Assembly: GCA_947172415.1 (NCBI GenBank)
Contig: OX359193.1
Coordinates: 1,374,501 to 1,438,500, forward strand
DNA length: 64,000 nucleotides
Direction: 5' to 3'
DNA from: Chondrosia reniformis
Lineage: Eukaryota; Porifera; Demospongiae; Chondrillida; Chondrillidae
Numbering within the stretch: the first letter of the stretch is position 1; each line of letters begins with the position of its first letter. Under the pieces are notes generated by a model. The model was not told the origin of the DNA. It did no database searches and worked only from the letters and a program-made list of their open reading frames with translations. The position numbers were made by a program, and so were the translations under genes. Shown in pieces: positions 9,943 to 52,868 of the stretch.

Positions 9943-10060
9943 TATAAGCCTGTAACATCATGCATGCATGCATATCTCTCTCTTTCTCTATAGATGTTTC
10001 ACCACTCTTCTCTCCTTGTAAGTTAAATCCTATATGCATGCACTATTATAAGTGCATTCT
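9943..10060. promoter_or_regulatory. Invertible upstream segment, A orientation, copy 2
   Basis: Contains AAGCCTGTAA, a CT-rich tract ending CTATAG, then ATGTTTCACCACTC and CTTGTAAGTT. The equivalent segment upstream of copies 3, 5 and 7 is the reverse complement, between shared outer flanks. In this orientation it reads like an acceptor, a ~24-base ATG-containing mini-exon and a donor; that is inference. Confidence 0.55.
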
Positions 10061-10224
10061 TCGAATTTCCACTCATTCACTAGAAACCTGCATGCATGGT
10101 CTTTATATATATATATACTCCATAATATTATATATGTTATGGAGAGGAAGAGGAAGTTAATGCACACTATGGATATATATATAATGACATAAATCAAACT
10201 TAAATAAAAGGCTACAATCCCAAA

Positions 10225-13200
10225 ATGAGGAATGATAAAGATTCTTTAACAGGTTCCTTTCTACTGTTTGTCACCTGTTCCTCCCTCGCTACTGGTGAGT
10301 CTCTTTATCACACCTTCTGGGTAACTCCATCTACTAAACAGGGATGTGGTAACAGAACTCCTTGTGATACCATTGATGGATATTACAGTCACACGAAAGA
10401 TATCTTCTCAACTTCAAATGCTACTTGGATCTTTCTGAATGGACATCATCAAGTGAGTAGGAAATTTAACATTTCATTAACAGAAAATGTTACTTTGAAG
10501 GGATTGGAAGGGAATATTCATATTGAAGCAAGCAGGATTACAATAGCAAAGAGTAGTAATATTTCAATAGCAAATGTAAATCTGCATAGTGATGTATTGC
10601 AAATAAAAAATGTTTCTGGTTTCTTTTTAAGCAATTCTTCAATCAATATATCTCTCTATGGCTTTCTAATAACTCCACCAGGAATTTATCACATTAAAAA
10701 TTGTACAATTAGAGGAGCATTTCATATATGGGATTTTGTAGACTTTGATAAATCCGAAATTTTAAATTTGGAGATTGAGGACACAAATTTTACTTCATAT
10801 AGCAGCTTTACAATTTTGATAACCACAGATACCACCTTGACCAATTACACTAGGAAAGTTAGCATTACTTTCAAAAGGTGTACTTTATTAGAAATGACAA
10901 TCACATTGATTGCCAACCCACAAAAAGGCTTCAAGTTATCAGTTCTTGATAGTCTGATTTCTAACATTTTCCTAATTTTTCAAATCTGCAATGCTCCAAT
11001 ATATTTTCCTTCAGTAAAAGTGGTCATACACAATTGTCACTTTAAAAAAAGTTTTGCTGAAAAAAGTGTATTTTCCATTATCCTAGCACCAGGACCTATC
11101 ACTGACAGTCACTATGCATCACTCAGCCAGCAGTGTTCTGTTAAAATCAAAATTAGTAATACTATATTTGAGCAAACTAAATTGTTACTGAGAAATTCTG
11201 CTTCTGATATCCCTAAATCCAGAGAAAAGGATAATATTACCTTTCACAATTGTACTTTTAAGCACTCCCATGGACAAATAGAGAAAACAAATGATGTGGC
11301 CATTGGTAGGTATGTCTTGGTTTTACGTGATTTTCATTTTCCAGTTGTAATGTCAGATTGCAACATAATTGACAATAAAGCTGGTGCTATATTTATGTCT
11401 AACAGTGAACTTCATTTACGAGGTCACAATGTGATCAGAAATAACACATTCAGTAATGACATAGGGGATGTTAGTCAATATGATATGGTAATAATTGCTT
11501 TGAGTTGCTCTCTCCTTCTTCTTGAGAATGGCTCAGAGCTAACTATTAGCCAAAATCAACTGTTTCTTCCTTTTGGTACCATTGTACTTAGTCCAACTCT
11601 TAAACAAAGCTCAACACATTATACAACTGTTTGCAATGATATGCAGGATTACAGAGATCAGACGTACATCACAGGATTTGATGGAAAGTGTTTTTTCCAA
11701 TTAGTAGATGAGCAAGGACTGTTAATAGAAAAGGACCGTGTTGAAAAATTTAATGGAAGTATTAAGTTTTTAAACAACACTTACTTTTTTCCTGATTATA
11801 AAAGTAAAAACTTACCTTGGGAGATATATAACGGGCATCTATATAACTGTATCCTCCAAACAAGAGGAAGTTCCATTAAAGCTGATACAAAACTCTTAAA
11901 GAAATTTATCCATCCTTCATCTCAGACTTCAAGAAAGGAATCAACTAAATATTATGTTATAAAAAGGTATATATCTTATCAGATATGCCTATGTAGTTAC
12001 ACTATACATGCATATGGAGATCCAAAGAAGGAGTCTAGATCTTCATGGGATTGCAGTGGACAGTTAAATTTAGCAATGCATACTGGAGAAGAAAGTATCA
12101 TTCTATACATCTCCACAGTAAATGACTTTGGTGAGATATCCGATGGCAGCAAAGTGGAGATTGACTGCAACAATGACATTTCCTGTAGTAAAGAGGTCTA
12201 TGTTGATCAGGAGTGTAAGAATATCACTGTCCCAAACATTCCCATTCGCTTGAATCAGACATCATTAAGGTTAAGATTAGAGACTGGTTTACCTGTTCTA
12301 GTTCCTATAGATGGGTACTATTCAGCTTATGTGGTAAATATTCTAAGATGTCCATTTGGATTTAAAGAAGATTTAAATACCATGAAATGTGAATGTGGAA
12401 GGTTTTTGATTGATCATCATTTTGAATGCCAATTAACCAAGCTGGGAGGTGTTGATTACAAACAGGTATTATTTGATACATATTGGATTGGATTACAGAT
12501 AGAAGTTCTTGTGTTAAGTGATGATTGCCTTCGTATATTTTGCAATAGTCTCATAAAAAGAGGGGGAGTTTCTATAGATGAATTAAATTTGTCTAATAAT
12601 AACAAGAAACAGTGTAATGAAGAAAATGGCCGAATTGGGTTTGTCTGCAGTGAATGTCCACCTGGTTATAGTTCAGTGTTTGGAGGATACACATGTACTC
12701 AGTGCAATGGACCATGGTTTATACTTTTCATTCCTCTGTATGTTCTAGCTGGTTTGGCCCTTGTAGCTCTACTTTTCCTGTTTAACTTGACCATTGTACA
12801 AGGAAACATCAATGTAATTAGTCTTTATGCCAATATCATGTATCTTTACTATGATGATTTGCAAGATTATGCAGGAAAACCTTTTTATAAAATAATTTCA
12901 CTACTTATATTAATTTTGGGATTGTATTTGAACTTTGTCTTTATGATGGTATGAATGAGTTTACAAAGGCCATGCTCCTATTTTCCTTTCCATTTTATCT
13001 GCTACTGATTGTGGTTCTTATTATCATTGGGGCTCACAAATTCAACCTCAGAATATTCAAAATAGAGTTCGTAGCTAAAAGAGCAGTACCAGTACTGGCG
13101 ACACTGATGGTGCTGACATATACAAGCTTAATTGGACTTGTCATCTATGCCTTAAGGTATACCAACATATATACTCATAATTCATTGACTGAGGAAGAGA

Positions 13201-14124
13201 CAACATATAGAGTTTGGTTGTATCAACCCAGACTGAGATACTTTGAAAAGGAGCACTTGGCTCTGGGGCTGTTGGCTCTTACTGTGACTGTTCTCTATCT
13301 CATTCCACTGACTGTAGTCACACTCTTTGGAGATCTCCTGAGGAGAAATTGCATTCGGAGCCTATGGTTCAGTCACTTTCTCGATGTATTTCATGGAGCT
13401 TATCGCTGGCCACTTGGTTTCTGGCTAGGTCTGAGATTAATGCTCAGGTTGTTAAATGCTTATTAGCACTCTTTTAAAACGTTATACTTATACATTTATA
13501 TTATTATTTACTTGCACTCTTTTTACCTTTGAGATTCTCCTTCTTAAGCCGTTCCATGGTAGATTCCAAAGTAATCAAGATTTTATAAAGAATAGAATTA
13601 ATAGAGTGCTGAAATGGTTTCTAAATCCAGTAAATGTGGATGGACTCTTCTTGATGAACATCATATTCTTTTCAGTCATTTTAGGTTTAAACTTTGATGA
13701 AAGTAGGTCTGTAGCACTAGGGGTATTCTGTAACATTTCTACATTATTGGTTGTCATAAAAATCTGCTTCATTATGGCTGCTCATGGTTGGATGTTTTTC
13801 CCTGTATCAAAGTACATGAAAGAGACATGGCTCAGATTTAAAGCAGTGCTTCAAAAAAAGGAGGTTAAGGAACAAGAGAAAGATGTAAACTCAACAGTCA
13901 CGGACTGTATTCAACAGTTCCAATTTCACGATATCCACCATCTTAAAGCTGGTCTACCACAGGAGAATGAGAGCAGTGATGAAGATGAAGCATCATTCAG
14001 TCAAAGTGGAGATTGGAGTGTACATACACTTGATCATGTATCTGGAGACATTGGAGATCGTAAAAATGATTTACCATCAGTACCTTTGGAGTCAAAAGGA
14101 CTTAGAGAGCCCCTGTTACAGTAA
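10225..14124 (+). pseudogene. Array membrane protein, copy 2, two frameshifts (A type)
   Basis: Start MRNDKDSLTGS with a hydrophobic signal peptide (residues ~8-24), then the beta-helix-like ectodomain rich in N-glycosylation sequons, the Cys-rich neck (CSECPPGYSS, TCTQC), the membrane region with type-1 C-terminal cassette, and the acidic tail. Compared with copy 4 there is a 5-base insertion (TATTA) near 12911 and a 2-base deletion near 13453. The first creates a stop at 12952. Together they add three bases, so the tail returns to the original frame. A product would stop after the first membrane segments. Both changes are small indels in otherwise conserved sequence, so either recent decay or consensus errors could explain them. 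Confidence 0.8.
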
Positions 14125-15736: not shown

Positions 15737-15803
15737 TCTACAGAGAGTTAGTAAAGATCATGTTTTAAATGATGAAGATATTGTACAATTAGTGAAGAAG
15801 TAA
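15705..15803 (+). pseudogene. DRG1 last-exon fragment, unit 2 (with stop)
   Basis: Same as the unit 1 fragment, including the Trp-to-TGA change, which indicates that units 1 and 2 share an ancestor after this mutation. It ends in the LVKK stop. It overlaps the chimeric N-terminus of the NHL fragment on the other strand. Confidence 0.8.
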
Positions 15804-18700: not shown

Positions 18701-18781
18701 TGTAAGAAGAGTGTACTGATTAAACTTACAAGGAGGGAAGAGTTTAGAGAGATATGCATGAATGGTATTACAGGCTTATTT
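18701..18781. promoter_or_regulatory. Invertible upstream segment, B orientation, copy 3
   Basis: TGTAAGAAGAGTGTACTG...CAGGCTTATT is the reverse complement of the A-type segment before copies 2, 4 and 6, while the sequence on both sides (CAGTCAGTGGAAAGAG left; CACTATATAGAAACCTG right) is collinear with them. Confidence 0.55.
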
Positions 18782-18967
18782 CCATTCACTATATAGAAAC
18801 CTGCATGTCATTATATATCCATAGTTTACATTAACTTCCTCTTCCTCTCCTTCAGCTATATATATAATGGTATATGGGGTGCAACCATTATTGGCTAACA
18901 TATATATACGTATATATATATACGTAGAGTGTATATAGATCATAAATTAATAAACTGCAATCCCAAA

Positions 18968-21900
18968 ATGAAGAATGGTCAATACTCTTCAACAATTATA
19001 TTTCTACTGTTTGTCGCCTGTTCCTCCCTCGCTACTGGTGAGTCTCTTTACCACACCTTCTGGGTAACTCCATCTACTGAACAGGGATGTGGTAACAGAA
19101 CTCCTTGTGATACCATTGATGGATATTACAGTCACACGAAAGATATCTTCTCAACTTCAAATGCTACTTGGATCTTTCTGAATGGACATCATCAAGTGAG
19201 TAGGGAATTAAACATTTTATTAACAGAAAATGTTACTTTGAAGGGATTGGAAGGAAATATTCACATTGAAGCAAGCAGGATTACAATAGCAAAGAGTAGT
19301 AATATTTCAATAGCAAATGTAAATCTGCATAGTGATGTATTGCAAATAAAAAATGTTTCTGGCTTCTTTTTAAGCAATTCTTCAATCAATATATCTCGTC
19401 TCAATGTCTTTCATATAACTCCACCAGGAATTTATCACATTAAAAATTGCACAATTAGAGGACTATTTTTATAAGGGATTCTGTAGACTTTGATAAATCC
19501 GAAATTTTAAATTTGGAGATTGAGGACACAAATTTTAGCAGCTTCAGTTTTTTGATAAACACATATATCACCTTGACCAATTACACTAAGAATGTTAGTG
19601 TTACTTTCAGAAGGTGTACTGTATTAGAAGTGACAATTACAATGATTGCCTACCCACAGAAAGGCTTCAAGTTATCAGTTCTTGATAGTCTGATTTCTAG
19701 CATTTTTCTAATATTTCAAATCTGCAATGCTCCAATATATTTTCCTTCAGTAAAAGTGGTCATACACAATTGTCATTTTAAAAACCATTTTGCTGAAAAA
19801 AGTGTATTTTTAATTGCTCTAAGGCCAGGACCTATCACTGACAGTCACTTTGCATCACTCAGCCAGCAGTGTCCTGTTAAAATCAAAATTAGTAATACTA
19901 TATTTGAGCAAACTACATTGTTACTGAGAAAGTCTGTTTCTGATTTCCCTAAATCCAGAGAAAAAGATAATATTACCTTTCACAATTGTACTTTTAAGCA
20001 CTCCCATGGACAAATAGAGAAAACAAATGATGTGGCCATTGGTAGGTATGTCTTGGTTTTACGTGATTTTCATTTCCCAGTTGTAATGTCAGATTGCAAC
20101 ATAATTGACAATAAAGCTGGTGCTATATTTATGTCAAACAGCAAACTTCAATTACGGGGTCACAATGTCATCAGAAATAACAAAATATTATATAATGACA
20201 TAAGGGATTTTAGTCAAATTGATAATATTATGGTAATAATTGCTTTGATTTGCTTTGATTTGCTCTCTCCTTCTTCTTGAGAATGGCTCAGAGCTAACTA
20301 TTAGCCAAAATCAACTGTTTCTTCCTTTTGGTACCATTGTACTTAGTCCAACTCTTAAACAAAGCTCAGCATATTATACAACTGTTTGCAATGACATGCA
20401 GGATTACAGAGATCAGATATACAGTGCAGGATTTGATGGACAGTGTTTTTTCCAATTAGTAGATGAGCAAGGACTGTTAATAGAAAAGGACCGTGTTGAA
20501 AAATTTAATGGAAGTATTACATTTTCTAACAACACTTACTTTTTTCCTATTAATAAAAGTAAAAACTTACCTTGGGAGATATATAACGGGCATCTATATA
20601 ACTGTATCCTCCAAACAAGAGACAGCCCCATTAAAGCTGATACAAAACTCTTAAAGAAAGTTTTCCATCATTCATCTCAGACTTCAAGAAAGGAATCAAC
20701 TAAATATTATGCGATAAATGGTTATATATCTTATCAGATATGCCTATGTAGTTACACTGTACATGCATATGGAGATCCAAAGAAGGAATCAAGATCTTCA
20801 TGGGATTGTAGTGGACAGTTTAACTTGGCAATGCATACTGGAGAAGAAAGTATCATTCTATACATCTCCACAGTAAATGACTTTGGTGAGATATCCAATG
20901 GCAGCAAAGTGGAGATTGACTGCAACAATGACATTTCCTGTAGTAAAGAGGTCTATGTTGATCAGGAGTGTAAGAATATCACTGTCCCAAAAATTCCCAT
21001 TCACTTGAATCAGACATCATTAAGGTTAAGATTACAGGCTGACTCACCTGCTCAAATAAATAGGCTACTGCCTATAGAAAAGTACTATTCAGCTTATGTG
21101 GTAAATATTCTCAGATGTCCCTTTGGATTTAAAGAAGATTTAAATACAATGAAATGTGAATGTGGAAGGTTTTTGATTGACCATCATTTTGAATGCCAAT
21201 TAACCAAGCTGGGAGGTGTTGATTACAAACAGGTATTATTTGATACATATTGGATTGGATTACAGCAAGAAGATCTTGTGTTAAGTGATTTTTGTCTTCG
21301 TATATTTTGCAATAGTCTCATAAAAAGAGGAGGAGTTTCTTTAGATGAATTAAATTTGTCTAATAATAACAATGAACAGTGTAATGAAGAAAATGGCCGA
21401 ATTGGGTTTGTCTGCAGTGAATGTCCACCTGGTTATAGTTCAGTGTTTGGAGGATACACATGTACTCAGTGCAATGGACCATGGTTTATTCTTTTCATTC
21501 CTCTACATGTTCTAGCTGGTTTGGCACTTGTAGCTCTACTTTTCCTGTTTAACTTGACCAGTGCATGTACAAGGAACCATCAATGGAATCAGTCTTTATG
21601 CCAATATCATGTATCTTTACTATGATGATTTGCAAGATTATGCAAGAAAACCTTTTTATAAAATAATTTCAATACTTAATTTTGGGAGCGAATTTGAAAT
21701 TTGTCTTTATGATGGTATGAATGAGTTTACAAAGGCCATGCTCCTATTTTCCTTTCCATTTTATCTTCTACTTATTGTGGTTCTCATTATCATTGGGGCT
21801 CACAAATTCAACCTCAAAATATTCAAAATAGAGTTCATAGCTAAAAGAGCAGTACCAGTACTGGCGACACTGATGGTGCTGACATATACAAGCTTAATTG

Positions 21901-22892
21901 GACTTGTCATCTATGCCTTAAAGTATATCAACATATATACTCATAATACATTGACTGAGGAAGAGACAACATATAGAGTTTGGTTGTATCAACCCAGACT
22001 TAGATACTTTGAAAAGGAGCACTTGGCTCTGGGACTGTTGGCTGTTACTGTGACTGTTCTCTATCTCATTCCACTGACTGTAGTCACACTCTTTGGAGAT
22101 CTCCTGAGGAGAAATTGCATTCGGAGCCTATGGTTCAGTCACTTTCTCGATGTATTCCATGGAGCTTATCGCTGGCCACTTGGTTTCTGGCTTGGTCTGA
22201 GATTACTGCTCAGGTTGTTACTAATGCTTATTAGCACTCTTTTAAAATGTTATACTTATACATTTATATTATTATTTACTTGCATTCTTTTTACTTTTGA
22301 GATTCTCCTTCTTAAGCCGTTCCATGGTAGATTCCAAAGTAATCAAGATTTTATAAAGAATAGAATTAGTAGAGTGCTGAAATGGTTTCTAAATCCAGTA
22401 AATGTGGATGGACTCTTCTTAATGAACATCATATTCTTTTCAGGCATTTTAGGTTTAAACTTTAATGAAAATAGGTCTGTAGCACTAGGGGTATTCTGTA
22501 ACATTTCTACATTATTGGTTGTCATAAAAATCTGCTTCATTATGGCTGCTCATGGTTGGATGTTTTTCCCTGTATCAAAGTACATGAAAGAGACATGGCT
22601 CAGATTTAAAGCAGTGCTTCAAAAAAAGGAGGTTAAGGAACATGAGAAAGATGTAAACTCAACAGTTGCGGACTGCATTCAACAGTTCCCATTTCATGAC
22701 ATCCACCATCTTAAAGCTGGTCTACCACAAGAGAATGAGAGCAGTGATGAAGATGAAACATCTTTCAGTCAAAGTGGAGATGGGAGTGTACATACACTTG
22801 ATCATGTATCTGGAGACATTGGAGATCCTAAAAATGATTTACCACCAGTACCTTTGGAGTCAAAAGGACTTAGAGAGCCCTTGTTACAGTAA
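18968..22892 (+). pseudogene. Array membrane protein, copy 3, three frameshifts (B type)
   Basis: B-type start MKNGQYSSTII. Three indels break it relative to copy 5: a 1-base deletion near 19463 (stop soon after IRG), a 10-base tandem duplication of GCTTTGATTT near 20242, and a 4-base insertion near 21563 at the first membrane segment. All segments between remain open and highly similar to the other copies, with type-1 C-terminal cassette and acidic tail, so inactivation looks recent. No full-length protein is possible without correction. Confidence 0.85.
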
Positions 22893-25310: not shown

Positions 25311-26903
25311 ATACCTTGCATCTTGATAAGAAGGTGAGATGGTTCCTGTATCTGGTGAGTTTACCAACTGTATTCCTCAATTTGTAGATGTCATAGATTG
25401 TAGTTTCTCTGAGCATTCAATGAAGTGATAAGGATTGTTTGTTGTGATCATGATGATCATTTTTCATATTTGCTGATGAAGACCTACGGGTTGAAACATT
25501 CTATTATCAATCTAGAAATGCACAATTTATTGTAATTTGATTTTTGTGAAATGGTTCATATGTTAATTGTCTATAGAGTTAAGTTGATAGAGCAATACAT
25601 TTATATGTACAGACAAGTGTGTTCTATATAAAAGCCATGTGGTGGGTAGGTACATTATGTGATGCATATATATCTTCAGTATTTGATCATGACTCTGGAT
25701 TTACTCCACCCACTCATGTCTCTAGCTGGGGAGCGCAATGATCTAATAGGTGGAACCCAAAGAACAAATACATATGTACGGAGTAAATCATTGTGCTCCT
25801 CATGCTTAAGATATGTACGTATGAATGGCCTGGTGGCATCATGGGATAAAATTCAGAGTGAAATATTAATGATGCATGATGACATCGATCAAAGTTTTAA
25901 GATTGGCTTTACATCTTAAAAGTCCCCTTATTACTTAATATATAGTCAGCCACATGCACACTTTGACTTAAAAGGAAACTATATATATATGTATATACAA
26001 TGCAAGTTTTGATACTTATAAGCAGACTTTCATTGTATATACGTATGGCATGTCTACTGTGTACGTATATGGTTCGATAATCGTTTTGAGTACCTATTAA
26101 GGGGAGATGCTGGTTTACCATTAAGTGATTGCATTCCTCATAGCAAGTAGGAAAATGGTGCATTAGATGTTTTGACTTCTCATGAGTGGGTGGGGTAAAA
26201 TTCAGAGTCAAATGATAAAGATATCAAAAACTCTAAGATTAGACATAGGTCTATTTTTAATACAAATTGCATTCAATGACATCTATATACGTATATTCAT
26301 TCAATTCATGTATATTCATTCAATTCATGTATAGAGGTGCATAAACAAATATAATGCATTCATTCATTATATATTGAAAATGAGATAGTATGTCATGTAC
26401 TTATTTTGAATTTAAATGACCTTAAGCTTGTAGGCTTTCTCAATAAAGAACAAACATTCAATTTCAATTCAAAATGTCAAATCAAATTGAACATTTAAGC
26501 CTATCATGGTAACCTAGCTTTTTCATGCATCTTTATTAAAAAAATTAAAAATCCATTTGTGGATAAATAAAACTTTAATTTTTTGGAGCCATACATCAAT
26601 GATGCAATGTATATATATGCCAAATTGTATTTATCATGCATATAGTACACTATATATGTATATATTATATACCTAAAAATTAAATCTCAATATCTATATA
26701 TACAATAATGCAAGTGAAATTATGCATGAGAAACTAACATACATGTGCGTAAAATGTCATGCATTATGTGTATAGGCCATTATCCCATGGAACATTATAT
26801 ATATACAGTAAAACTTAAGTATATACCATTTATGCATGGGTCAATATACATAATAAACATGCAGTCAAACATACAGAAAGAGCAGTACATACGTACTATG
26901 TTT

Positions 26904-27012
26904 ATGTAAGCCTGTAACATCATACATGCATATATCTCTCTCTTTCTCTATAGATGTTTCACCACTCTTTTCTCCTTGTATGTTAAATTCCACTATCAGT
27001 GCATTTTTCTTA
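26904..27012. promoter_or_regulatory. Invertible upstream segment, A orientation, copy 4
   Basis: Same orientation as copies 2 and 6 (AAGCCTGTAACATC, CT-rich tract, CTATAGATGTTTCACC, TCCTTGTATGTT). Reverse complement of copies 3, 5 and 7. Confidence 0.55.
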
Positions 27013-27178
27013 TTTCCACTCATTCACTAGAAACCTGTATGTCATTATATATATATCCATATTTTGCATTAACTTCCTCTTCCTCTCCTTCAGATATAAT
27101 TGCATAACATAATATATGTAGAGTATATATATATACGTAGAGAGAGAGAGACCATAAATCAAACTCTACAATTCCAAA

Positions 27179-36700: not shown

Positions 36701-36788
36701 ATGTAAGAAGAGTGTACTGATAGTGGGATTAAACTTACAAGGAGGGAAGAGTTTAGAGAGATATGCATGAATGGTATTACAGGCTTAT
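36701..36788. promoter_or_regulatory. Invertible upstream segment, B orientation, copy 5
   Basis: Its GATAGTGGGATTAAACTTAC is complementary to the A-type segment of copy 4 (GTTAAATTCCACTATC), which makes this the clearest B example of the inversion. Confidence 0.6.
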
Positions 36789-36928
36789 TTCCATTCAATA
36801 TAGAAACCTGCATGTCATTATATATCCATAGTTTACATTAACTTCCTCATATGGCGTGCAACCATTATTGGATAACATATATACGTAGAGTATATTTAGA
36901 CCATAAATTAATAGACTGCAATCCCAAA

Positions 36929-39900
36929 ATGAAGAACGGTCAATATTCTTCAACAATTATATTTCTACTGTTTGTCGCCTGTTCCTCCATCCCTATTGGT
37001 GAGTCTCTTTACCACACCTTCTGGGTAACTCCATCTACTGAACAGGGATGTGGTAATAGAACTCCTTGTGATATCATTGATGGATATTACAATCAGACTA
37101 AAGATATCTTCTCAACTTCAAATGCTGCTTGGATCTTTCTGAATGGACATCATCAAGTGAGTAATATGGAATTAAAAATTTCATTAACAGAAAATGTTAC
37201 TTTGAAGGGATTGGAAGGGAATATTCACATTGAAGCAGGCAGGATTACAATAGCAAGGAGTAGTAATATTTCAATAGCAAATGTAAATTTGCATAGTGAT
37301 GTATTGCAAATAAAAAATGTTTCTGGTTTCTTTTTAAGCAATTCTTCAATCAATATATCTCTCTATGGCTTTCAAATAACTCCACCAGGAATTTATCACA
37401 TTAAAAATTGCACAATTATAGGACCATTTGGAATATTGGATTTTGTAGACTTTGATAAATCCGAAACTTTAAATTTGGAGATTGAGGACACAAATTTTAC
37501 TTCATATAGCAGCTTCAGTTTTTTGATAAACACCACCTTGACCAATTACACTAGGAAAGTTAGCATTACTTTCAAAAGGTGTACTGTATTAGAAATGACA
37601 ATTACAATGATGGCCTACCCACAGAGAGGCTTCAAGTTATCAGTTCTTGATAGTCTGATTTCTAACATTTTTCTAATATTTCAAATCTGCAATGCTCCAT
37701 TATATTTTCCTTCAGTAAAAGTGGTCATACACAATTGTCACTTTAAAAAACGTTTTGCTGAAAAAAGTGAATTTTCTATTATCTTAGCACCAGGACCTAT
37801 CACTGACAGTCACCATGCATCACTCAGCCAGCAGTGTCCTGTTAAAATCAAAATTAGTAATACTATATTTGAGAAAACTACATTATTACTGAGAAATTCT
37901 GTTTCTGATTTCCTTAAATCCAGAGAAAAGGATAATATCACCTTTCACAATTGTACTTTTAAGCACTACTGTGGACTAACAGGGGAAACGAATGATGTGG
38001 CCCTTGGTAGGTATGTCTTGGTTTTACGTGATTTTAATTTTCCAGTTGTAATGTCAGATTGCAACATAATTGACAATAAAGCTGGTGCTATATTTATGTC
38101 AAACAGTAAACTTCAATTACGAGGTCACAATGTCATCAGAAATAACAAAATATATAATGACTTTGGGTCTTGGGATGTTAGTATGGTAATAATTGTTTTG
38201 AGTTGCTCTGCAGTCCTTCTTCTTGAGAATGGCTCTAAGCTAACTATTAGCCACAATCAACTGTTTTTTCCTTACGGTACCATTGTACTTAGTCCAACTC
38301 TTAAACGAAGCTCAACACGTTATTCAACTGTTTGCAATGATATACAACACATGCAGGATTACAGAGATCAGACGTACATCACAGGATTTGATGGAAAGTG
38401 TTTTTTCCAATTAGTAGATGAGCAAGGACTGTTAATAGAAAGCAAAAATGTTACAAACTTTAATGGAAGTATTACATTTTCTAACAACACTTACTTTTTT
38501 CCTACTTATAAAAGTACAAACTTACCTAAGGAGATATATAACGGGCATCTATATAACTGTATCCTCCAAACAAGAGTAGGTCCTATTAAAGCTGATACAA
38601 AACTCTTAAAGAAAGTTTTCCATCTTTCATCTCAGACTTCAAGAAAGGAATCAATCAAATATTATGTTATAAACGGTTATATATCTTATCAGATATGCCT
38701 ATGTAGTTACACTGTACATGCATATGGAGATCCAAAGAATAGATCTAGATCTTCATGGGATTGTAGTGGACAGTTTAACTTGGTAATGCATACTGGAGAA
38801 GAAAGTATCATTCTATACATCTCCACAGTAAATGATTTTGGTGAGATATCTGATGGCAGCAAAGTGGAGATTGACTGCAACAATAACATTTCCTGTAGTA
38901 AGGAGGTCTATGTTGATCAGGAGTGTAAGAATATCACTGTCCCTAAAATTCCCATTCAATTGAATCAGACATCATTAAGATTAAGATTAGAGACTCATTC
39001 ACCTGTTCAAAGGCTACTGCCTATAGAGAAGTACTATTCAGCTTATGTGGTAAATATTCTTAGATGTCCATTTGGATTCAAAGAAGATTTAAATACCATG
39101 AAATGTGAATGTAGAAGGTTTTTGATTGACCATCATTTTGAATGCCAATTAACCAAGCTGGGAGGTGTTGATTACAAACAGGTATTATTTGATACATATT
39201 GGATTGGATTACAGAAAGAAGTTCTTGTGATAAGTGATTTTTGTCTTGGTATATTTTGCAATAGTCTCATAAAAAGAGGGGGAGTTTCTTTAGATAAACT
39301 AAATTTGTCTAATAGTAACAATGAACAATGTAATGAAGAAAATGGTCGAATTGGGTTTGTCTGCAGTGAATGTCCACCTGGTTATAGTTCAGTGTTTGGA
39401 GGATACACATGTACTCAGTGCAATGGACCATGGTATATACTTATAATTCCTCTACATGTTCTAGATGGTTTGGCACTTGTTGCTCTACTTTTCCTGTTTA
39501 ATTTGACCATTGTACAAGGAACCATCAATGGAATCAGTCTTTATGCCAATATCATGTATCTTTACTATGATGATTTGCAAGATTATGCAGGAAGACTTTC
39601 TTATAAAATAATTTCACTACTTAATTTTGGGAGCGAATTTGAAATTTGTCTTTATGATGGTATGAATGAGTTTACAAAGGCCATGCTCCTATTTTCCTTT
39701 CCATTTTATCTTCTACTTATTGTGGTTCTTATTATCATTGGGGCTCACAAATTTAACCTCAGAATATTCAAAATAGAGTTCATAGCTAAAAGAGCAGTAC
39801 CAGTACTGGCGACACTGATGATACTGACGTATACAAACTTAATTGGACTTGTCATCCATGCCTTAAGGTATACCAACATATATACTCATAATACATTGAC

Positions 39901-40861
39901 TGAGGAAGAGACAACATATAGAGTTTGGTTGTATCAACCCAGACTTAGATACTTTGAAAAGGAGCACTTGGCTCTGGGGCTGTTGGCTGTTACTGTGACT
40001 GTTCTCTATCTCCTTCCACTGACTGTAGTCACACTCTTTGGAGATCTCCTGAGGAGAAATTGCATTCGGAGCCTATGGTTCAGTCACTTTCTTGATATAT
40101 TCCATGGAGCTTATCGCTGGCCACTTGGTTTCTGGCTTGGTCTGAGATTAATGCTGAGGTTGTTATTGGTAATAGTTAGTGCTTTTCAAAAATCATACAC
40201 TTATTTACTTGTATTTTTATTTGCTTGTTTGCTTTTTTACATGGAATTGCATCTAATTAAACCATTTCATAGCAGATTCCAGAGTAAAACATCTTCGACA
40301 AACACCACCTCTAAGAATAGAATAAGAAATGTGCTAAAGTGGTTTTTAAGTCCAGTAAATGTGGATGGGATCTTCTTAATGAACATTATTTTCTTTTCTG
40401 GAGTGAATACCCTTGTTTCTAACAAAGAAAGGCAATTAACACAAGATGTACAATTAGCAATCAGTGTCATTGCAACTGTTTTAGGTGGTATACAAGTCTG
40501 CCTCGTTATAGTAGCACATGGATGGATGTTCTTCCCTATTCCAAAGTGCTTGAAGGAAAGGTTGCTAGGAATTAAAGCATTACTACCCAGAAGGAAGAAG
40601 ATTAACGAAGGCACACAAGAGATACACCTAAAAGCAGAGAATTACAACCAGACATTCCCATTTCACGACATCCACCATCTTAAAGCTGGTCTACCACAGG
40701 AGAATGAGAGCAGTGATGAAGATGAAACATCTTTCAGTCAAAGTGGAGGTGGGAGTGTACATACACTTGACCATGTATCTGGAGACATTGAAGATCCTAA
40801 ATATGATTTACCACCAGTACCTTTGAAGTCAAAAGGACTTACAGAGCCCCTGTTACAGTAA
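36929..40861 (+). CDS. Array membrane protein, copy 5, intact (B type, cassette 2)
   Basis: 1310 residues from MKNGQYSSTII; an upstream in-frame Met at 36851 is not conserved in the other copies, so 36929 is preferred. Same architecture as copy 4 up to about residue 1078. From there to about residue 1240 it carries a different cassette (VIVSAFQKSYTYLLVFLF, NTTSKNRIRNVLKWF, VIVAHGWMFFPIPKC) and a basic LLPRRKK stretch before rejoining the common tail at FPFHDIHHLKAG. The two cassettes have the same length and hydrophobic pattern but differ at many positions. One neck Cys is altered (KCECRRF where others have KCECGRF). Confidence 0.9.
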   Translation: MKNGQYSSTIIFLLFVACSSIPIGESLYHTFWVTPSTEQGCGNRTPCDIIDGYYNQTKDIFSTSNAAWIFLNGHHQVSNMELKISLTENVTLKGLEGNIHIEAGRITIARSSNISIANVNLHSDVLQIKNVSGFFLSNSSINISLYGFQITPPGIYHIKNCTIIGPFGILDFVDFDKSETLNLEIEDTNFTSYSSFSFLINTTLTNYTRKVSITFKRCTVLEMTITMMAYPQRGFKLSVLDSLISNIFLIFQICNAPLYFPSVKVVIHNCHFKKRFAEKSEFSIILAPGPITDSHHASLSQQCPVKIKISNTIFEKTTLLLRNSVSDFLKSREKDNITFHNCTFKHYCGLTGETNDVALGRYVLVLRDFNFPVVMSDCNIIDNKAGAIFMSNSKLQLRGHNVIRNNKIYNDFGSWDVSMVIIVLSCSAVLLLENGSKLTISHNQLFFPYGTIVLSPTLKRSSTRYSTVCNDIQHMQDYRDQTYITGFDGKCFFQLVDEQGLLIESKNVTNFNGSITFSNNTYFFPTYKSTNLPKEIYNGHLYNCILQTRVGPIKADTKLLKKVFHLSSQTSRKESIKYYVINGYISYQICLCSYTVHAYGDPKNRSRSSWDCSGQFNLVMHTGEESIILYISTVNDFGEISDGSKVEIDCNNNISCSKEVYVDQECKNITVPKIPIQLNQTSLRLRLETHSPVQRLLPIEKYYSAYVVNILRCPFGFKEDLNTMKCECRRFLIDHHFECQLTKLGGVDYKQVLFDTYWIGLQKEVLVISDFCLGIFCNSLIKRGGVSLDKLNLSNSNNEQCNEENGRIGFVCSECPPGYSSVFGGYTCTQCNGPWYILIIPLHVLDGLALVALLFLFNLTIVQGTINGISLYANIMYLYYDDLQDYAGRLSYKIISLLNFGSEFEICLYDGMNEFTKAMLLFSFPFYLLLIVVLIIIGAHKFNLRIFKIEFIAKRAVPVLATLMILTYTNLIGLVIHALRYTNIYTHNTLTEEETTYRVWLYQPRLRYFEKEHLALGLLAVTVTVLYLLPLTVVTLFGDLLRRNCIRSLWFSHFLDIFHGAYRWPLGFWLGLRLMLRLLLVIVSAFQKSYTYLLVFLFACLLFYMELHLIKPFHSRFQSKTSSTNTTSKNRIRNVLKWFLSPVNVDGIFLMNIIFFSGVNTLVSNKERQLTQDVQLAISVIATVLGGIQVCLVIVAHGWMFFPIPKCLKERLLGIKALLPRRKKINEGTQEIHLKAENYNQTFPFHDIHHLKAGLPQENESSDEDETSFSQSGGGSVHTLDHVSGDIEDPKYDLPPVPLKSKGLTEPLLQ

Positions 40862-43949: not shown

Positions 43950-44135
43950 ATAAGGTTAATTCCTCGCTCGTTAAACACGTCTTCTGTTAATCGATCTGAC
44001 AATAGCTGTTGTGTTTTTTATTCATTGTTGTAGCTTCAAAACGAAATATACAACTAAAGCATATTAAAAGACGCTAAATAACAAAGACGGAATGAAACAA
44101 AACGAAACGCTATAAGTTTTTTATAAGCCGCACAC
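43950..44135. repeat. Upstream element with internal inversion, copy 6
   Basis: Homologue of 9690-9885. The core 44021-44097 (CATTGTTGTAGCTTCAAAACG to GACGGAAT) is the reverse complement of the copy 2 core. Confidence 0.6.
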
Positions 44136-44194: not shown

Positions 44195-44311
44195 ATATAA
44201 GCCTGTAACATCATGCATGCATATATATCTCTCTTTCTCTATAGGTGTTTTCACCACTCTTCTCTCCTTGTAAGTTAAATCCTATATGCACTATTATAAG
44301 TGCATTCTTCG
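44195..44311. promoter_or_regulatory. Invertible upstream segment, A orientation, copy 6
   Basis: Same orientation and near-identical to copy 2 (AAGCCTGTAACATCATGC, CTATAGGTGTTTTCACC, CTTGTAAGTT). The in-segment ATG seen in copies 2 and 4 is GTG here. Confidence 0.55.
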
Positions 44312-44411
44312 AATTTCCATTATGCATGGAGAGGAAGAGGAAGTTAATGCAAACTATGCATATATATATAATGACATAAATCAAAATTAATTAAAAGGCT
44401 ACAATCCCAAA

Positions 44412-47400
44412 ATGAGGAATGATAAAGTTTCTTTAACAGGTTCCTTTCTACTGTTTGTCGCCTATTCCTCCATCACTACTGGTGAGTCTCTTTACCACAC
44501 CTTCTGGGTAACTCCATCTACTGAACAGGGATGTGGAAACAGAACTCCTTGTGATACCATTGGTGGATATTACAATCAGGCTAAAGATATCTTCTCAACT
44601 TCAAATGCTACTTGGATCTTTCTGAATGGACATCATCAAGTGAGTAGGGAATTAAACATTTCATCAACAGAAAATGTTACTTTGAAGGGATTGGAAGGGA
44701 ATATTCACATTGAAGCAGGCATTATTATGATAACAAAGAGTAGTAATATTTCAATAGCAAATGTAAATCTGCTTAGTTATAGACTGTTTATAAATGTTTC
44801 TGGCTTCTTTGTAAGCAATTCTTCAATCAAAATATCTCTTCATTTCCTTCTTGCAACTCCAACAGGAATTTATCACATAAAAAATTGCACAATTAGAGGA
44901 GTATTTGAAATATATGATTATGACTTAAGCAATGTTAATGCTGCTTATTCCAAACTTTTAAATATGAAGATTGAGGACACAAATTTTACCTCAAATAGCA
45001 CCTTGATGATCACATTTCATACCTTGGTCAATTACGCTAGGACAGTTAGTGTTGCTTTCAAAAGGTGTATTGTACCAGGAATGACAATTACAATGGTTAG
45101 ATACCCACAAGAAGGCTTCAAGTTATCAGTTTTAGATAGTTTGATTCTTGGAGATGTTAACATTTTGCTAATTCAAATCTGTAATACTTCACTATATAAT
45201 CCTTCTGAATCAGTAAAAGTGAACATACACAATTGTCACCTTAAAAAATGTTTTGCTGAAAAAATTGTATTTTTAATTACCCTAGCACCTATCACTGACA
45301 GTCACTTTACATCACTCAGCCAGCAGTGTCCTGTTAAAATCAAAATTAGTAATACTATATTTGTAGGAGCTACATTTATAATGAGAAATTCTGTTTCTGG
45401 ATTCCCTAAATCCAAGGAAAAGGATAACATTACTTTTCACAATTGTACTTTTAAGCACTACCATGGACTAACAGAGAAAACAAACGATGTGGCCATTAAT
45501 AGCTATGTCTTGGTTTTACGTGATTTTCATTTTCCAGTTGTAATGTCAGATTGCAAAATAATTGACAATAAAGCTGGTGCTATATTTATGTCAAACAGTA
45601 AACTTCACTTACGAGGTCACAATGTCATCAGAAATAACACTGTACGTAATGGCTTTGGGTTTTGGGATGCTGATCAATATCATAAGGTAATAATTGCGTT
45701 GTATTGCTCTCTCCTTCTTCTTGAGAATGGCTCACAGCTAACTATTAGCCATAATCACCTTTATTATCCTTACGGTACCATTGTACTTAGTCCAACTCTT
45801 AAACGAAGCTCAACACGTTATTCAACTGTTTGCAATGACATACAACACATGCAGGATTACAGAGATCAGACGTACATCACAGGATTTGATGGAAAGTGTT
45901 TTTTCCAATTAGTAGATGAGCAAGGACAGTTTATAGAAAAGGACCATGTTGAAAAATTTAATGGAAGTATTACATTTTCTAACAACACTCACTCTTTTCC
46001 TGCTTATAAAAGTAAAAACTTACCTAAGGAGATATATAATGGGCATCTATATAATTGTATCCTACAAACAAGAGAAAGCACTATTAAAGTTGATACAGAA
46101 CTCTTAAAGAAATTTATCCATCATTCGTCTCAGACTTCAAGAAAGGAATCAAATGCATATGTTCAATTTATAAAAACTTTTCAATCTTATCAGATATGCT
46201 TATGTAGTTACACTGTACATGGAGATCCAAAGAAGAGAGCTAAATCTTCATGGGATTGCAGTGGACAGTTTAACTTGGCAATGCATACTGGAGAAGAAAA
46301 TATCATTCTATACATCTCCACAATAAATGACTTTGGTGAGATATCCAATGACAGAAAAGTGGAAATCGACTGCAACAATAACATTTCCTGTAGTAAAGAG
46401 GTCTATGTTGATCAGGAGTGTAAGAATATCACTGTCCCAAAAATTCCCATTCACTTGAATCAGACATCATTAAGGTTAAGACTAGAGACTGAATCACCCG
46501 TTCAAACAAATAGGCTACTGCCTATAGACAAGTACTATTCAGCTTATGTGGTAAATATTCTTAGATGTCCCTTTGGATTTAAAGAAGATTTAAATACCAT
46601 GAAATGTGAATGTGGAAGGTTTTTGATTGACCATCATTTTGAATGCCAATTAACCAAGCTGGGAGGTGTTGATTACAAACAGGTGTTATTTGATACGTAT
46701 TGGATTGGATTACAGCAAGAAGATCTTGTGTTAAGTGATTTTTGTCTTGGTATATTTTGCAATAGTCTCATAAAAAGAGGAGGAGTTTCTTTAGATGAAT
46801 TAAATTTGTCTAATAATAACAATAAACAGTGTAATGAAGAAAATGGCCGAATTGGGTTTGTCTGCAGTGAATGTCCACCTGGATATAGTTCAGTGTTTGG
46901 AGGATACACATGTACTCAGTGCAATGGACCATGGTTTATACTTTTCATTCCTCTGTATGTTCTAGCTGGTTTGGCACTTGTAGCTCTACTTTTCCTGTTT
47001 AACTTGACCACTGTACAAGGAACCATCAATGGAATCAGTCTTTATGCCAATATCATGTATCTTTACCATGATGATTTGCAAGATTATGCAGGAAAACCTT
47101 TTTATAAAATAATTTTACTACTTAATTTTGGGAGCGAATTCGAAATTTGTCTTTATGATGGTATGAATGAGTTTACAAAGGCCATGCTCCTATTTTCCTT
47201 TCCATTTTATCTTCTACTTATTGTGGTTCTCATTATCATTGGGGCTCACAAATTCAACCGCAGAATATTCAAAGTAGAGTTCATAGCTAAAAGAGCCGTA
47301 CCAGTACTGGCGACACTGATGGTACTGACATATACAAGCTTAATTGGACTTGTCATCCATGCCTTAAGGTATACCAACATATATACTCATAATACATTGA

Positions 47401-48362
47401 CTGAGGAAGAGACAACGTATAGAGTTTGGTTGTATCAACCCAGACTGAGATACTTTGAAAAGGAGCACTTGGTTCTGGGACTGTTGGCTGTTACTGTGAC
47501 TGTTCTCTATCTCATTCCACTGACTGTAGTCACACTCTTTGGAGATTTCCTGAGGAGAAATTGCATTCGGAGTCTATGGTTCAGTCACTTTCTTGATGTA
47601 TTCCATGGAGCTTATCGCTGGCCACTTGGTTTCTGGCTTGGTCTGAGATTACTGCTCAGGTTGTTATTGGTAATAGTTAGTGCTTTTCAAAAATCATACA
47701 CTTATTTACTTGTATTTTTATTTGCGTGTTTGCTTTTTTACATGGAATTGCATCTAATTAAACCATTTCATGGCAGATTCCAGAGTAAAGCGTCTTCGCC
47801 AAACACCACCTCTAAGAATAGAATAAGAAATGTGCTAAAGTGGTTTTTAAGTCCAGTAAATGTGGATGGGATCTTCTTAATGAACATTATTTTCTTTTCT
47901 GGAGTGTATGCCCTTGTTTCTAACAAAGAAAGGCAATTATCACAAGATGTACAATTAGCAATCAGTGTCATTGCAACTGTTTTAGGTGGTATACAAGTCT
48001 GCCTCATTATAGTAGCACATGGATGGATGTTCTTCCCTATTCCAAAGTGCTTGAAGGAAAGGTTGCTAGGAATTAAAGCATTACTACCCAGAAGGAAGAA
48101 GATTAATGAAGACATGCAAGAGATACACCTAAAAGCAGAGAATTACAACCAGACATTCCCATTTCGAGACATCCACCATCTTAAAGCTGGTCTACCACAG
48201 GAGAATGAGAGCAGTGATGAAGATGAAACATCTTTCAGTCAAAGTGAAGATGGGAGTGTACATACACTTGATCATGTATCTGGAGACATTGAAGATCCTA
48301 AAAATGATTTACCACCAGTACCTTTGAAGTCAAAAGGACTTACAGAGCCCCTGTTACAGTAA
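44412..48362 (+). CDS. Array membrane protein, copy 6, intact (A type, cassette 2)
   Basis: 1316 residues from MRNDKVSLTG. Same domain order as copy 4. The N-terminal beta-helix region resembles copy 4 (SYRLFINVSGFFVSNSSIKIS) rather than 2, 3 or 5, while the C-terminal membrane region is the cassette shared with copies 5 and 7. From the first membrane segment on (LTTVQG, YHDDLQ, KIILLLNF) it is almost identical to copy 7, indicating recent exchange. The tail ends EPLLQ. Confidence 0.9.
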   Translation: MRNDKVSLTGSFLLFVAYSSITTGESLYHTFWVTPSTEQGCGNRTPCDTIGGYYNQAKDIFSTSNATWIFLNGHHQVSRELNISSTENVTLKGLEGNIHIEAGIIMITKSSNISIANVNLLSYRLFINVSGFFVSNSSIKISLHFLLATPTGIYHIKNCTIRGVFEIYDYDLSNVNAAYSKLLNMKIEDTNFTSNSTLMITFHTLVNYARTVSVAFKRCIVPGMTITMVRYPQEGFKLSVLDSLILGDVNILLIQICNTSLYNPSESVKVNIHNCHLKKCFAEKIVFLITLAPITDSHFTSLSQQCPVKIKISNTIFVGATFIMRNSVSGFPKSKEKDNITFHNCTFKHYHGLTEKTNDVAINSYVLVLRDFHFPVVMSDCKIIDNKAGAIFMSNSKLHLRGHNVIRNNTVRNGFGFWDADQYHKVIIALYCSLLLLENGSQLTISHNHLYYPYGTIVLSPTLKRSSTRYSTVCNDIQHMQDYRDQTYITGFDGKCFFQLVDEQGQFIEKDHVEKFNGSITFSNNTHSFPAYKSKNLPKEIYNGHLYNCILQTRESTIKVDTELLKKFIHHSSQTSRKESNAYVQFIKTFQSYQICLCSYTVHGDPKKRAKSSWDCSGQFNLAMHTGEENIILYISTINDFGEISNDRKVEIDCNNNISCSKEVYVDQECKNITVPKIPIHLNQTSLRLRLETESPVQTNRLLPIDKYYSAYVVNILRCPFGFKEDLNTMKCECGRFLIDHHFECQLTKLGGVDYKQVLFDTYWIGLQQEDLVLSDFCLGIFCNSLIKRGGVSLDELNLSNNNNKQCNEENGRIGFVCSECPPGYSSVFGGYTCTQCNGPWFILFIPLYVLAGLALVALLFLFNLTTVQGTINGISLYANIMYLYHDDLQDYAGKPFYKIILLLNFGSEFEICLYDGMNEFTKAMLLFSFPFYLLLIVVLIIIGAHKFNRRIFKVEFIAKRAVPVLATLMVLTYTSLIGLVIHALRYTNIYTHNTLTEEETTYRVWLYQPRLRYFEKEHLVLGLLAVTVTVLYLIPLTVVTLFGDFLRRNCIRSLWFSHFLDVFHGAYRWPLGFWLGLRLLLRLLLVIVSAFQKSYTYLLVFLFACLLFYMELHLIKPFHGRFQSKASSPNTTSKNRIRNVLKWFLSPVNVDGIFLMNIIFFSGVYALVSNKERQLSQDVQLAISVIATVLGGIQVCLIIVAHGWMFFPIPKCLKERLLGIKALLPRRKKINEDMQEIHLKAENYNQTFPFRDIHHLKAGLPQENESSDEDETSFSQSEDGSVHTLDHVSGDIEDPKNDLPPVPLKSKGLTEPLLQ

Positions 48363-49504: not shown

Positions 49505-50186
49505 CTACAATTCTGTTTTTTCATCATCTGTTACGTAAATAAGTCCATCTTGATCAACTGTTACACCACGAGGACCTTTCAGTCCAATATCAGTCACTTC
49601 ATGGACATACCTTCCAGATTTTGTGAAGATGCTTAGCTTATGAGTGCTATGTGAAGCCACCACTATATGCCCGTCACTTGTGGCTGCTATACCAGTTGGG
49701 CTCTTTACAATACCATTTCCAAACTGCCTAATAAAAGAACCATCCTGCTGAAACACCTGAATACAATCATTTCCCTCATCTGTGACATACACCAATTCAC
49801 CTTGAATGAGACTGGGTTTGTAGAAGTTTCCGTCTGGGTCACCTTTGTGATCAAAGCTGTATATGAATGAACCTTCTTCTGTAAACACAGACACACAATG
49901 ACTCCAACGTTCTACCACAAAGACGAGTCCTTCCTTGCTAACTGCCAGACCATCAGGGCCTGACAGCAGATGGCCCTCCTTGGATTTCTCTCTAATTTGC
50001 CTTACAAATTCACCAGCTGCTGTGTAAATAGTGATGGCACCACTTTCATGGTCACTAACTATAATATCACCTGATTTACTGAGTGCTATTCCATTCAATA
50101 ATCCAGCATCCCTGACTTTGAAGCTTCTTCTAGCTTCACCTTGGGAACTTAGAACAGTTACCTGCACCAAACACAGGCACACCTGT
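49505..50186 (-). pseudogene. 5'-truncated TRIM-NHL copy, unit 6, primary junction
   Basis: NHL blades 2-6 with a 2-codon in-frame loss (KPSLIQ for KPSKILIQ) and the short-T-run end seen in unit 1. Unlike units 1-5 it keeps the QVTVLSSQ codons. It then skips ~215 bases and carries a 21-base piece (50165-50185, one mismatch) that matches 58996-59016 in the filamin-domain coding region, directly followed by DRG1. This marks the tandem-duplication join. The reading frame can start at an upstream Met inside antisense DRG1, but that is chance. Confidence 0.85.
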
Positions 50187-50981
50187 AGTCTCATATTTAT
50201 TGTGTTGGATTTACTAAAGCCTTTGGAACACAAGCATATTATTGAAAGAGAGCTAGAAACTTACGGAATAAGGTTGGTCTGTACTGTATGATCTGTCAAT
50301 CTCTATGTAGTATCTTTTTACATACGTACACAATATAATACTATTGTTATTTAATGCTAACTTATTTATTCAACTAACTTCAAAGTATCCAATGATGAAT
50401 TTGTGTGCTATTTATTTTGTAATGCTCCTTTGGAATACTTGTATAGTGTGATAAAGATAGGTATGCATACCTACATGTTTAATATGGTTGTATATTGTAA
50501 ATTGCTTGGTTACTGAATTGGTAGTTAAAATTTGAGATTTACTTCCTTGTATTGTTATCTATTGTGCCTTTAATAGCGTCCCCTCCTACTTATATATGTC
50601 TTTAACAGCATCCCCTCCTGTGTCTGCTTAGGCTAAACAAATCTCCTCCAAATATCTATTTCAAGAAGAAGGAAAAGGGAGAAATTAATCTCAATGCAAT
50701 GGTAAGCCAAGACAACATAGTGATGTAACTACCATAGGTTGAAACGGATCATGTAGAGTTTGTGGTCTTTGTCAATGTCAATTACACAATTTTATCTACC
50801 ATGATTGTAGTTTAGAACCTCCAGTGATTTGATTTTCATTCCCATTCCAGGTTCCACAATCACAGTTGAATATGGAAACCGTCAAGTCTGTACTGTCAGA
50901 ATATCGGATTCACAATGCAGACATTACTCTAAAATGTGATGCCACAGCGGATGACCTCATTGATTTAGTGGAAGGCAACAG
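50178..50981 (+). pseudogene. DRG1 exons a (partial), b and c, unit 6-7 spacer
   Basis: Exon a (to 50272) encodes [19 protein letters not shown] and onward to GIR; exon b 50632-50701 encodes LNKSPPNIYFKKKEKGEIN and onward; exon c 50851-50981 encodes [15 protein letters not shown] to LVEGNR. Splice sites and phases fit (AG/GTTGGT, AG/GTAAGC, AG/GTAGCT). Everything upstream of exon a, including the P-loop exons, is replaced by NHL sequence. Truncation on both sides makes it non-functional. Confidence 0.88.
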
Positions 50982-51610: not shown

Positions 51611-51709
51611 GAGGGATTAGTGAGCTTTCCATAGCAGGGCGAAACAATCAAGTCGTCCTGGAATAATGTTGACTGTTTCGCCCTGCTACGGAAAGCTCAC
51701 TAATTCCTC
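51611..51709. repeat. Hairpin MITE-like element, unit 6-7
   Basis: Homologue of 17419-17518; arms centred on AGCAGGGCGAAACAATCAAG and its complement. Shared position before copies 3 and 7 means the insertion predates their separation. Confidence 0.75.
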
Positions 51710-52787
51710 CATTAGAATACGTATATATATTTAATTGCTGAATCATTGTGCTCCTCATGAAGGTTAAAGATATAAATGGCCTATGGCCATTGGCTAAAAT
51801 TCAATGTCAAATGATGATGACATCAAAGTTTTAAGATTGGCTTTACATCTTTTAAATTAAAGTCCTCTTATTATTTAGTAGTCAGCCACACTTTTGACTA
51901 AAAAAGGAAACTACAATGCAAACGTTTTCTTATGAGCAGAGTATATATATACATGTAGCAAGTAGCCACTCACAGACTTCCAGTGTATGTCATGTCTATA
52001 TGGTTCGACAATCCTTTTGAGTGCGTATTAAGAGGAGATGCTGGTTTGCCATTAAGTGATACGTAGCTTATTGCATTCCTCATGGCATGTAGGAAAATGA
52101 TGCATTAAGTTTTTCATTTTTGATTTTCAAGAGTGGGTTGGGTAAAATTCAGAGTCAAATGATGAAGATATCAAAAGCTCTACGATTAGACTTAAATCCC
52201 CCTATTTTAAATATTATTATAGTATTCATTCATCTACATATACATGTATAGATTCATTTAATTCACATATAGAGGTGAATAAACACATATGTATTCAGGT
52301 GAATAAACGTATATATAATGTATTCATAATAATGAAAATGAGACAGGATGTATAGATTTATTTTGAATTTAAATGAGGTCCCTGAATATAGGCTTTCTCA
52401 ATAAAATTATTAATTTGTCCATATATAGAACAAGAATTTTCATTATTCATGAAACTTTTTATATAAAAATTACGCAATACGCAAAATACTCAAAAATTTG
52501 CATCTATCCATTTAATTGTGGATAAATAGAATTAGCTACATTTTGTTACATTGCATACTTGTGTAATTATATACCTAAAAATTGTACATCAAATGTTTTA
52601 ATCTCAATATCCAAATATTGAAATCATGCATGAGTTATGTGCATACACGTACGTATGTAAAATGTCATGTATTATGTATTCGTATATATAGGCCATTATC
52701 CAACACTATATACAGTACAGAATATTAAATATATGTATATAAAATACATCCAGTCAGTGGAAAGAGCAGTGCATACGTACTATCTTC

Positions 52788-52868
52788 ATGTAAGAAGAGT
52801 GTACTGATTAAACTTACAAGGAGGGAAGAGTTTAGAGAGATATGCATGAATGGTATTACAGGCTTATT
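52788..52868. promoter_or_regulatory. Invertible upstream segment, B orientation, copy 7
   Basis: Near-identical to copy 3 (GTAAGAAGAGTGTACTGATT to ACAGGCTTATT); reverse complement of A copies. Confidence 0.55.

Follow-up and report, generated by a model that had tools for sequence, protein, structure and literature searches.

An alternating inverted segment upstream of seven tandem genes in the sponge Chondrosia reniformis looks like a frozen micro-inversion

Bacterial invertible promoters carry a short invertible segment in front of a gene. In the sponge Chondrosia reniformis, a short segment that we call A lies upstream of each gene of a tandem array and alternates in orientation from one gene to the next. 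We analyzed this array in a window of 64,000 nucleotides (assembly GCA_947172415.1, contig OX359193.1, positions 1,374,501 to 1,438,500 of the forward strand). Segment A resembles the bacterial promoters in being short and upstream of a gene, but we saw no long recombination sites, its orientation follows its sequence class, and no recombinase is found among the sponge frames examined. The sponge case is of the same kind as known micro-inversions, but the segments are longer (roughly 50-140 bp) and differ in orientation between paralogues.

Three sets of micro-inversions offer the closest comparisons. In human-chimpanzee micro-inversions, inverted repeats abut the ends, with arms of >8 nt in 39%, 4-8 nt in 50% and 3 nt in 11% of cases, and template switching or microhomology-mediated break-induced replication is the proposed cause (PMC8755829). 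The sponge array likewise has small inversions in otherwise collinear DNA, and the TAAG/CTTA arms of segment A, present in 4 of 6 copies, fit this description (PMC8755829). By contrast, the human-chimpanzee inversions are 17-33 nt long and lie between species, whereas those of the sponge span roughly 50-140 nt and lie between more diverged tandem copies, and a second sponge segment, B, lacks clear arms in the 4 copies examined (PMC8755829). In birds, several inversions cluster in two non-coding hotspot loci that lack stem-loops (PMC3123225). The sponge inversions are similarly clustered; however, the avian ones are 5-38 bp long and some recur or overlap, whereas the sponge inversions are longer and adjacent, with no recurrence shown at any one site (PMC3123225). 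Finally, yeast spacers invert between short inverted repeats by template switching, and sponge segment A is likewise a spacer inverted between short inverted repeats (PMC8604942). The yeast study concerned coding DNA of yeast strains, whereas for the sponge we can only infer a mechanism (PMC8604942).

The array consists of seven copies of a long open frame of ~1310 codons, spaced 7.5-11.4 kb apart; copy 1 starts 1219 bases upstream of the window, and a protein search of 144 kb around the array, of which 1000 bases read N, returned no eighth copy. Upstream of every gene lies segment A, 68-113 bp long and roughly at positions -276 to -103 relative to the start codon. It has one orientation in copies 2, 4, and 6 and is reverse-complemented relative to them in copies 3, 5, and 7. 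Segment A of copy 1 lies further out (-491 to -420), lacks the GTAAG end described below, and has the odd orientation, so that the alternation extends to all seven copies. If three of seven copies had flipped at random, exactly this arrangement would be expected in 1 case in 35. Orientation was tested with 500 dinucleotide shuffles per pair, copy 1 included. All 12 pairs between the odd and even classes scored 39-50 as reverse complements, above every shuffle, and 12-18 in the forward direction, and all 9 pairs within classes matched forward (99-181), with the proviso that pairwise counts are not independent of one another. Since the self-complementarity of A is 12-28, compared with 39-50 across classes, the segment is not a palindrome. 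A shows two features of a micro-inversion: a reverse-complement match at a collinear position between matching flanks, which segments B and C described below share, and a sequence that is not palindromic.

These results confirm the alternation that an earlier, sequence-only reading of copies 2 to 7 had described. Its segment length of 80-120 bp needs correction, the measured lengths being nearer to 70-110 bp. The short inverted ends that it reported hold for copies 3, 4, 5, and 7, where GTAAG borders A on the left and CTTAT on the right and the flanks are collinear up to both ends. In copies 2 and 6 the ends have decayed to ATAAG and CGAAT. Perfect inversion of the ends extends over 4 bp only (TAAG/CTTA) and is seen in four of the six copies inspected.

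Orientation is tightly linked to the sequence of A itself. Once all copies are brought into one orientation, identity is 97.8% within the odd class, 92.2% within the even class, and 79.8% between classes. Among 65 ungapped columns, 18 are variable, and 10 of these are fixed differences between the orientation classes; the other variable columns differ within the odd copies only (2), within the even copies only (5), or in both classes (1). Under the other 34 ways of splitting seven copies into three and four, the number of fixed differences is zero. Gaps in A mostly follow the classes as well. An exception is the stretch CCACTATCAGT (in the common orientation), which is shared by copies 1, 4, and 5, is changed or missing in the others, and which we read as an ancestral trait. 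Repeated flipping would uncouple orientation from sequence, and this has hardly happened, implying that A is frozen and not flipping. In a phase-variable switch orientation would be independent of sequence class, which is not what we found for A. Of the two possibilities raised by the sequence-only reading, repeated flipping is not supported, given 10 fixed differences against one column that varies in both classes. The freezing of one inversion during array growth is supported by the same 10 differences, by class linkage in the first ~70 coding bases and, for the odd copies and for the pair of copies 2 and 6, by linkage in ~1 kb of upstream DNA. The flip of A resembles an ancient accident in the history of the array that has since stayed fixed, not a working genetic switch.

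The flanks of A indicate how this history may have run. Best matches were surveyed over the 1250 bases upstream of the start codon, in five windows of 250 bases each. The best match of an odd copy was another odd copy in 18 of 20 cases; the two exceptions are the -1250 window of copy 5 and the -250 window of copy 1. In the latter, copy 1 carries an insertion of ~200 bases, absent from the other six copies, that separates segment B from the start codon (window coordinates of about -1490 to -1280). In all five windows copies 2 and 6 matched each other best. The 345 bases to the left of A are 92.0% alike among the odd copies. Downstream, the first 66 coding bases are 93.9% identical within the even class, 92.7% within the odd class, and 82.8% between classes, and in the first 70 coding bases the best match falls within the class for all 7 copies. 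No even/odd split appears at coding bases 67-600, 600-1800, or 1800-2900, or in the distal spacers. Thus, the odd copies form a tight upstream class and copies 2 and 6 form a pair, which copy 4 joins chiefly in A and at the start of the coding sequence. This pattern would be expected of two interleaved upstream types together with conversion or unequal exchange that shuffled the gene bodies. Separately, the 3' coding kilobase (about +2900 to +3930) falls into two types, copies 1-4 and copies 5-7, which are 95.4-98.6% identical within and 80.4-83.0% between; this block change is unrelated to the odd/even split.

Segment A is not the only inverted segment in this region, and three others, B, C, and E, had been overlooked by the sequence-only reading. 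Segment B, which follows A and precedes the start codon, runs in copies 2 and 6 in the opposite direction to that in copies 1, 3, 4, 5, and 7. All 10 flipped-unflipped pairs scored above all 500 shuffles as reverse complements (50-106), and the other 11 pairs matched forward (66-201). In copy 4, segment A matches the orientation of copies 2 and 6 and segment B that of the odd copies, implying an intermediate of a two-step series in which each step takes a single inversion. Copies 2 and 6 differ from each other in the orientation of segment C, which is flanked on both sides by collinear DNA (reverse 112, forward 30, maximum of 500 shuffles 33, self-complement 20-42). For segment E, copies 2 and 4 likewise matched in reverse (75, compared with 21 forward, a maximum of 41 in 500 shuffles, and self-complementarity of 27-28). 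However, E has a palindromic core and the copy 4 stretch matches copies 1, 3, 5, 6, and 7 better in the forward direction, and E is the inversion of which we are least sure.

All four segments lie within ~1 kb of the start codon. A scan of the 69 unaligned gaps in 21 spacer pairs, in which a gap passed when its reverse score was at least 32 and no more than 1 of 200 shuffles equaled it, gave 18 passes. Seventeen of these came from the 38 gaps that begin within the last 1 kb (7 for A, 9 for B, and 1 for E); among the 31 gaps further out, one passed marginally (36, compared with a shuffle maximum of 33). The scan missed C and some pairs known to differ in A and B, and because spacer pairs are not independent, it shows clustering and not a rate. 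With several clustered inversions, the upstream kilobase matches the known kind of locus called a micro-inversion hotspot. Two other candidates were rejected. An inverted match among copies 1, 3, and 7 is self-complementary, since all three match mutually in reverse, and a spacer sequence of ~195 bp occurs at different places within the spacer.

Segment A may be enclosed by an intron in the 5' untranslated region (5'-UTR). Candidate splice sites were scored with splice-site weights and ranked among the sites on both strands of the 144-kb region, the candidate sites themselves included. Segment B holds a candidate TTCAG acceptor preceded by TTAAC and a 19-base pyrimidine tract, which in copies 1, 3, 4, and 7 ranks in the top 0.03% of 17,736 AG sites. 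In copies 3, 4, 5, and 7 the GTAAG that borders A on the left is a candidate donor in the top 3.5-7.5% of 16,839 GT sites; it is preceded by CAT in copies 3 and 7 and by TAT in copy 4. Donor and acceptor occur together in copies 3, 4, and 7, where the introns that they would delimit, with A inside, measure 154, 188, and 154 bases. The donor is missing from copy 1, and copy 5 has lost the acceptor to a deletion. In copies 2 and 6 the donor GT reads AT and B is flipped, which takes the candidate acceptor off the sense strand. The even copies have an additional acceptor-like site inside A (top 0.15-0.16%). Because A lies inside the candidate intron in three copies, its orientation may matter little for expression; if the intron is used, the inversion would have been harmless, since only the intron's interior turned.

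We propose a single inversion of segment A, in the lineage that gave rise to one of two upstream types, probably through an error of short-range replication or repair (template switching or microhomology-mediated break repair) between the 4-bp inverted ends. Growth of the array would then have interleaved the two upstream types, giving the odd/even alternation, and gene conversion or unequal exchange would meanwhile have mixed the gene bodies. Segment B would have inverted later, in the common ancestor from which the upstream regions of copies 2 and 6 descend, leaving copy 4 with the intermediate state. Further micro-inversions, C and probably E, would have struck the same kilobase, and such repetition within one kilobase would make it a micro-inversion hotspot. 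The inversion of A was probably tolerated because it lay inside a 5'-UTR intron, between the GTAAG donor and B, where the branch and acceptor region lies, and the flip of B would have accompanied loss of this candidate intron in copies 2 and 6. What the data show directly is the inversions, their tie to sequence class, their clustering, and splice-like sites; the molecular error, the sequence of events, and use of the intron are inferred. For this explanation as a whole, comprising a single old inversion of A, interleaved types, later inversions, and tolerance within an intron, we estimate a probability of about 0.85.

Several observations weigh against this interpretation. In A, 1 of 65 columns varies in both classes, copy 1 having the same G there as copies 2 and 6, and the inverted ends have decayed in copies 2 and 6; clear inverted arms at B were not found in the 4 copies examined. 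The upstream region of copy 4 is mixed, with best matches in the five windows to copies 3, 1, 1, and 2 and a tie between 1 and 2. The 345-base left flank is 73.8% alike among the even copies compared to 72.4% between classes, and class linkage spans at most ~1.3 kb of units that are 7.5-11.4 kb apart. Because of these last three points, strictly dimeric growth of the array, by which the sequence-only reading had explained the frozen inversion, is not demonstrated and is weakly supported; growth in two-gene units may be one way to interleave upstream types. The intron part of the explanation is affected by the modest ranks of the donors, by splice scores that depend on the weights used, and by the presence of both sites in only 3 of 7 copies. 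Moreover, once B is oriented, flipped copies share 93.5-97.9% identity with unflipped ones (copy 5 excluded), the same as within the groups. This high identity could equally reflect an orientation-independent constraint, such as a motif working both ways, and not a lost splice site.

An extension of this scheme would have an inversion hotspot that is still active, with flips that create or destroy a 5'-UTR intron and thereby diversify the regulation of neighboring paralogues stepwise, an intermediate being kept in the array; we consider this unlikely. Less likely still, selection may keep the alternation because the two orientations drive different expression of neighboring genes. Such selection would account for upstream types and first codons that stay distinct although the gene bodies are mixed, but the reading frames of copies 2 and 3 are broken, and array history suffices to explain the pattern.

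We think it very improbable that A is an invertible element that still flips as an expression switch for the array genes. The short inverted ends, the upstream position, the several inverted segments in one kilobase, and the one column that varies in both classes would all suit such a switch. However, orientation is tied to 10 fixed differences and to class-specific gaps, and the crossing column is a single base that copy 1 shares with copies 2 and 6. Moreover, the inverted ends of A are just 4 bp long and are decayed in two copies, we found no end sequence shared by A and B, and a Pfam search of 13 open frames detected no recombinase domain, the rest of the genome not having been searched.

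An even smaller probability attaches to A being a small transposable element that inserted in opposite directions in the two upstream types. Its length of ~70-110 bp and its short inverted ends would suit such an element; however, two insertions, one in each type, would have had to hit the same base pair by coincidence, and none of the seven copies lacks A. DNA searches of the whole genome, 117,379,552 bases in 15 contigs, with two stretches containing A in either orientation as queries, matched A in the array alone (counts are lower bounds), which also speaks against a mobile element. The same search returned a single 58-base match on contig C8, which corresponds to the distal portion of B. 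Finally, the idea that the two upstream regions are unrelated in A and resemble each other by AT-rich chance when inverted, a concern voiced in the sequence-only reading, has a negligible probability and is ruled out by the shuffle test: the region is AT-rich with simple repeats and oriented between-class identity is only ~80%, but all 12 cross-class pairs exceed all 500 dinucleotide shuffles and the flanks are collinear in copies 3, 4, 5, and 7.

The neighboring micro-inversions, whose order is partly readable from surviving copies, make the array a compact natural record of how such changes accumulate, and the same record bears on what micro-inversions may do to promoters and introns. The case also warns that inversions can hide in paralogue alignments near start codons. 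The array offers no evidence for a genetic switch in an animal.

Two of the array genes have broken frames (Table 1). The C. reniformis assembly has a reported quality value (QV) of 69.8 (PMC12181767). Provided that this value applies here, the broken frames of copies 2 and 3 are probably real pseudogenes. In copy 5, the start homologous to that of the other copies is at 36929 and not at 36851. The protein of copy 7 gave one weak Pfam match, to Beta_helix, under the curated cut-off, and the other four array frames scanned gave none; comparison of the array protein with solved structures gave no match up to E = 1.

Table 1. Positions in the window of the inverted segments, candidate introns, array genes, and neighboring features.
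Feature	Copy	Positions	Strand	Remarks
Segment A	2	9949..10061	+	even orientation
Segment A	3	18707..18774	-	odd orientation, inverted relative to even
Segment A	4	26911..27008	+	even orientation
Segment A	5	36708..36783	-	odd orientation, inverted relative to even
Segment A	6	44202..44309	+	even orientation
Segment A	7	52795..52862	-	odd orientation, inverted relative to even
Segment B	2	10097..10189	+	flipped; approximate ends; reverse complement 50-106 compared with copies 1, 3, 4, 5, 7
Segment B	3	18807..18945	-	unflipped
Segment B	4	27041..27152	-	unflipped
Segment B	5	36814..36904	-	unflipped; deletion removes candidate acceptor
Segment B	6	44325..44376	+	flipped, shortened; approximate ends; reverse complement 50-86 compared with copies 1, 3, 4, 5, 7
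Segment B	7	52895..53015	-	unflipped
Segment C	2	9738..9850	+	inverted relative to copy 6
Segment C	6	44013..44113	-	inverted relative to copy 2
Segment E	2	9440..9510	+	weaker, near palindrome
Segment E	4	26588..26665	-	inverted relative to copy 2 only
Candidate 5'-UTR intron	3	18702..18855	+	CAT/GTAAGA to TTCAG
Candidate 5'-UTR intron	4	26906..27093	+	
Candidate 5'-UTR intron	7	52790..52943	+	
Array gene	2	10225..14124	+	three reading-frame pieces
Array gene	3	18968..22892	+	four reading-frame pieces
Array gene	4	27179..31111	+	open frame, 1310 amino acids
Array gene	5	36929..40861	+	open frame, 1310 amino acids, counted from homologous start
Array gene	6	44412..48362	+	open frame, 1316 amino acids
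Array gene	7	53044..56976	+	open frame, 1310 amino acids
NHL-repeat frames		4500-5222, 15029-15736, 32474-33124, 49505-50233, 58106-60271	-	Pfam scan
Spacer repeat of ~195 bp		3852-4001, 5619-5786, 14527-14708, 16132-16299, 23251-23445, 24767-24939, and others	both	

Open frames with NHL repeats lie on the minus strand 3' of copies 1, 2, 4, 6, and 7. The stretches 3' of copies 3 and 5 match the NHL-frame stretches at the DNA level, the domain scan having covered the other five. Because these frames follow array copies on the opposite strand, the repeating unit seems to consist of two convergent genes. The last NHL frame (58106-60271) is the longest, at 721 amino acids, and has additional B-box and filamin matches, a TRIM-like arrangement. 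The spacer sequence rejected above as an inversion is up to ~195 bp long, occurs in both orientations at several sites of the array and also elsewhere in the 144-kb region, and is likely a short dispersed repeat. The sole Rfam match is to the transfer RNA family, at 6449-6521 on the minus strand, in the spacer before copy 2.

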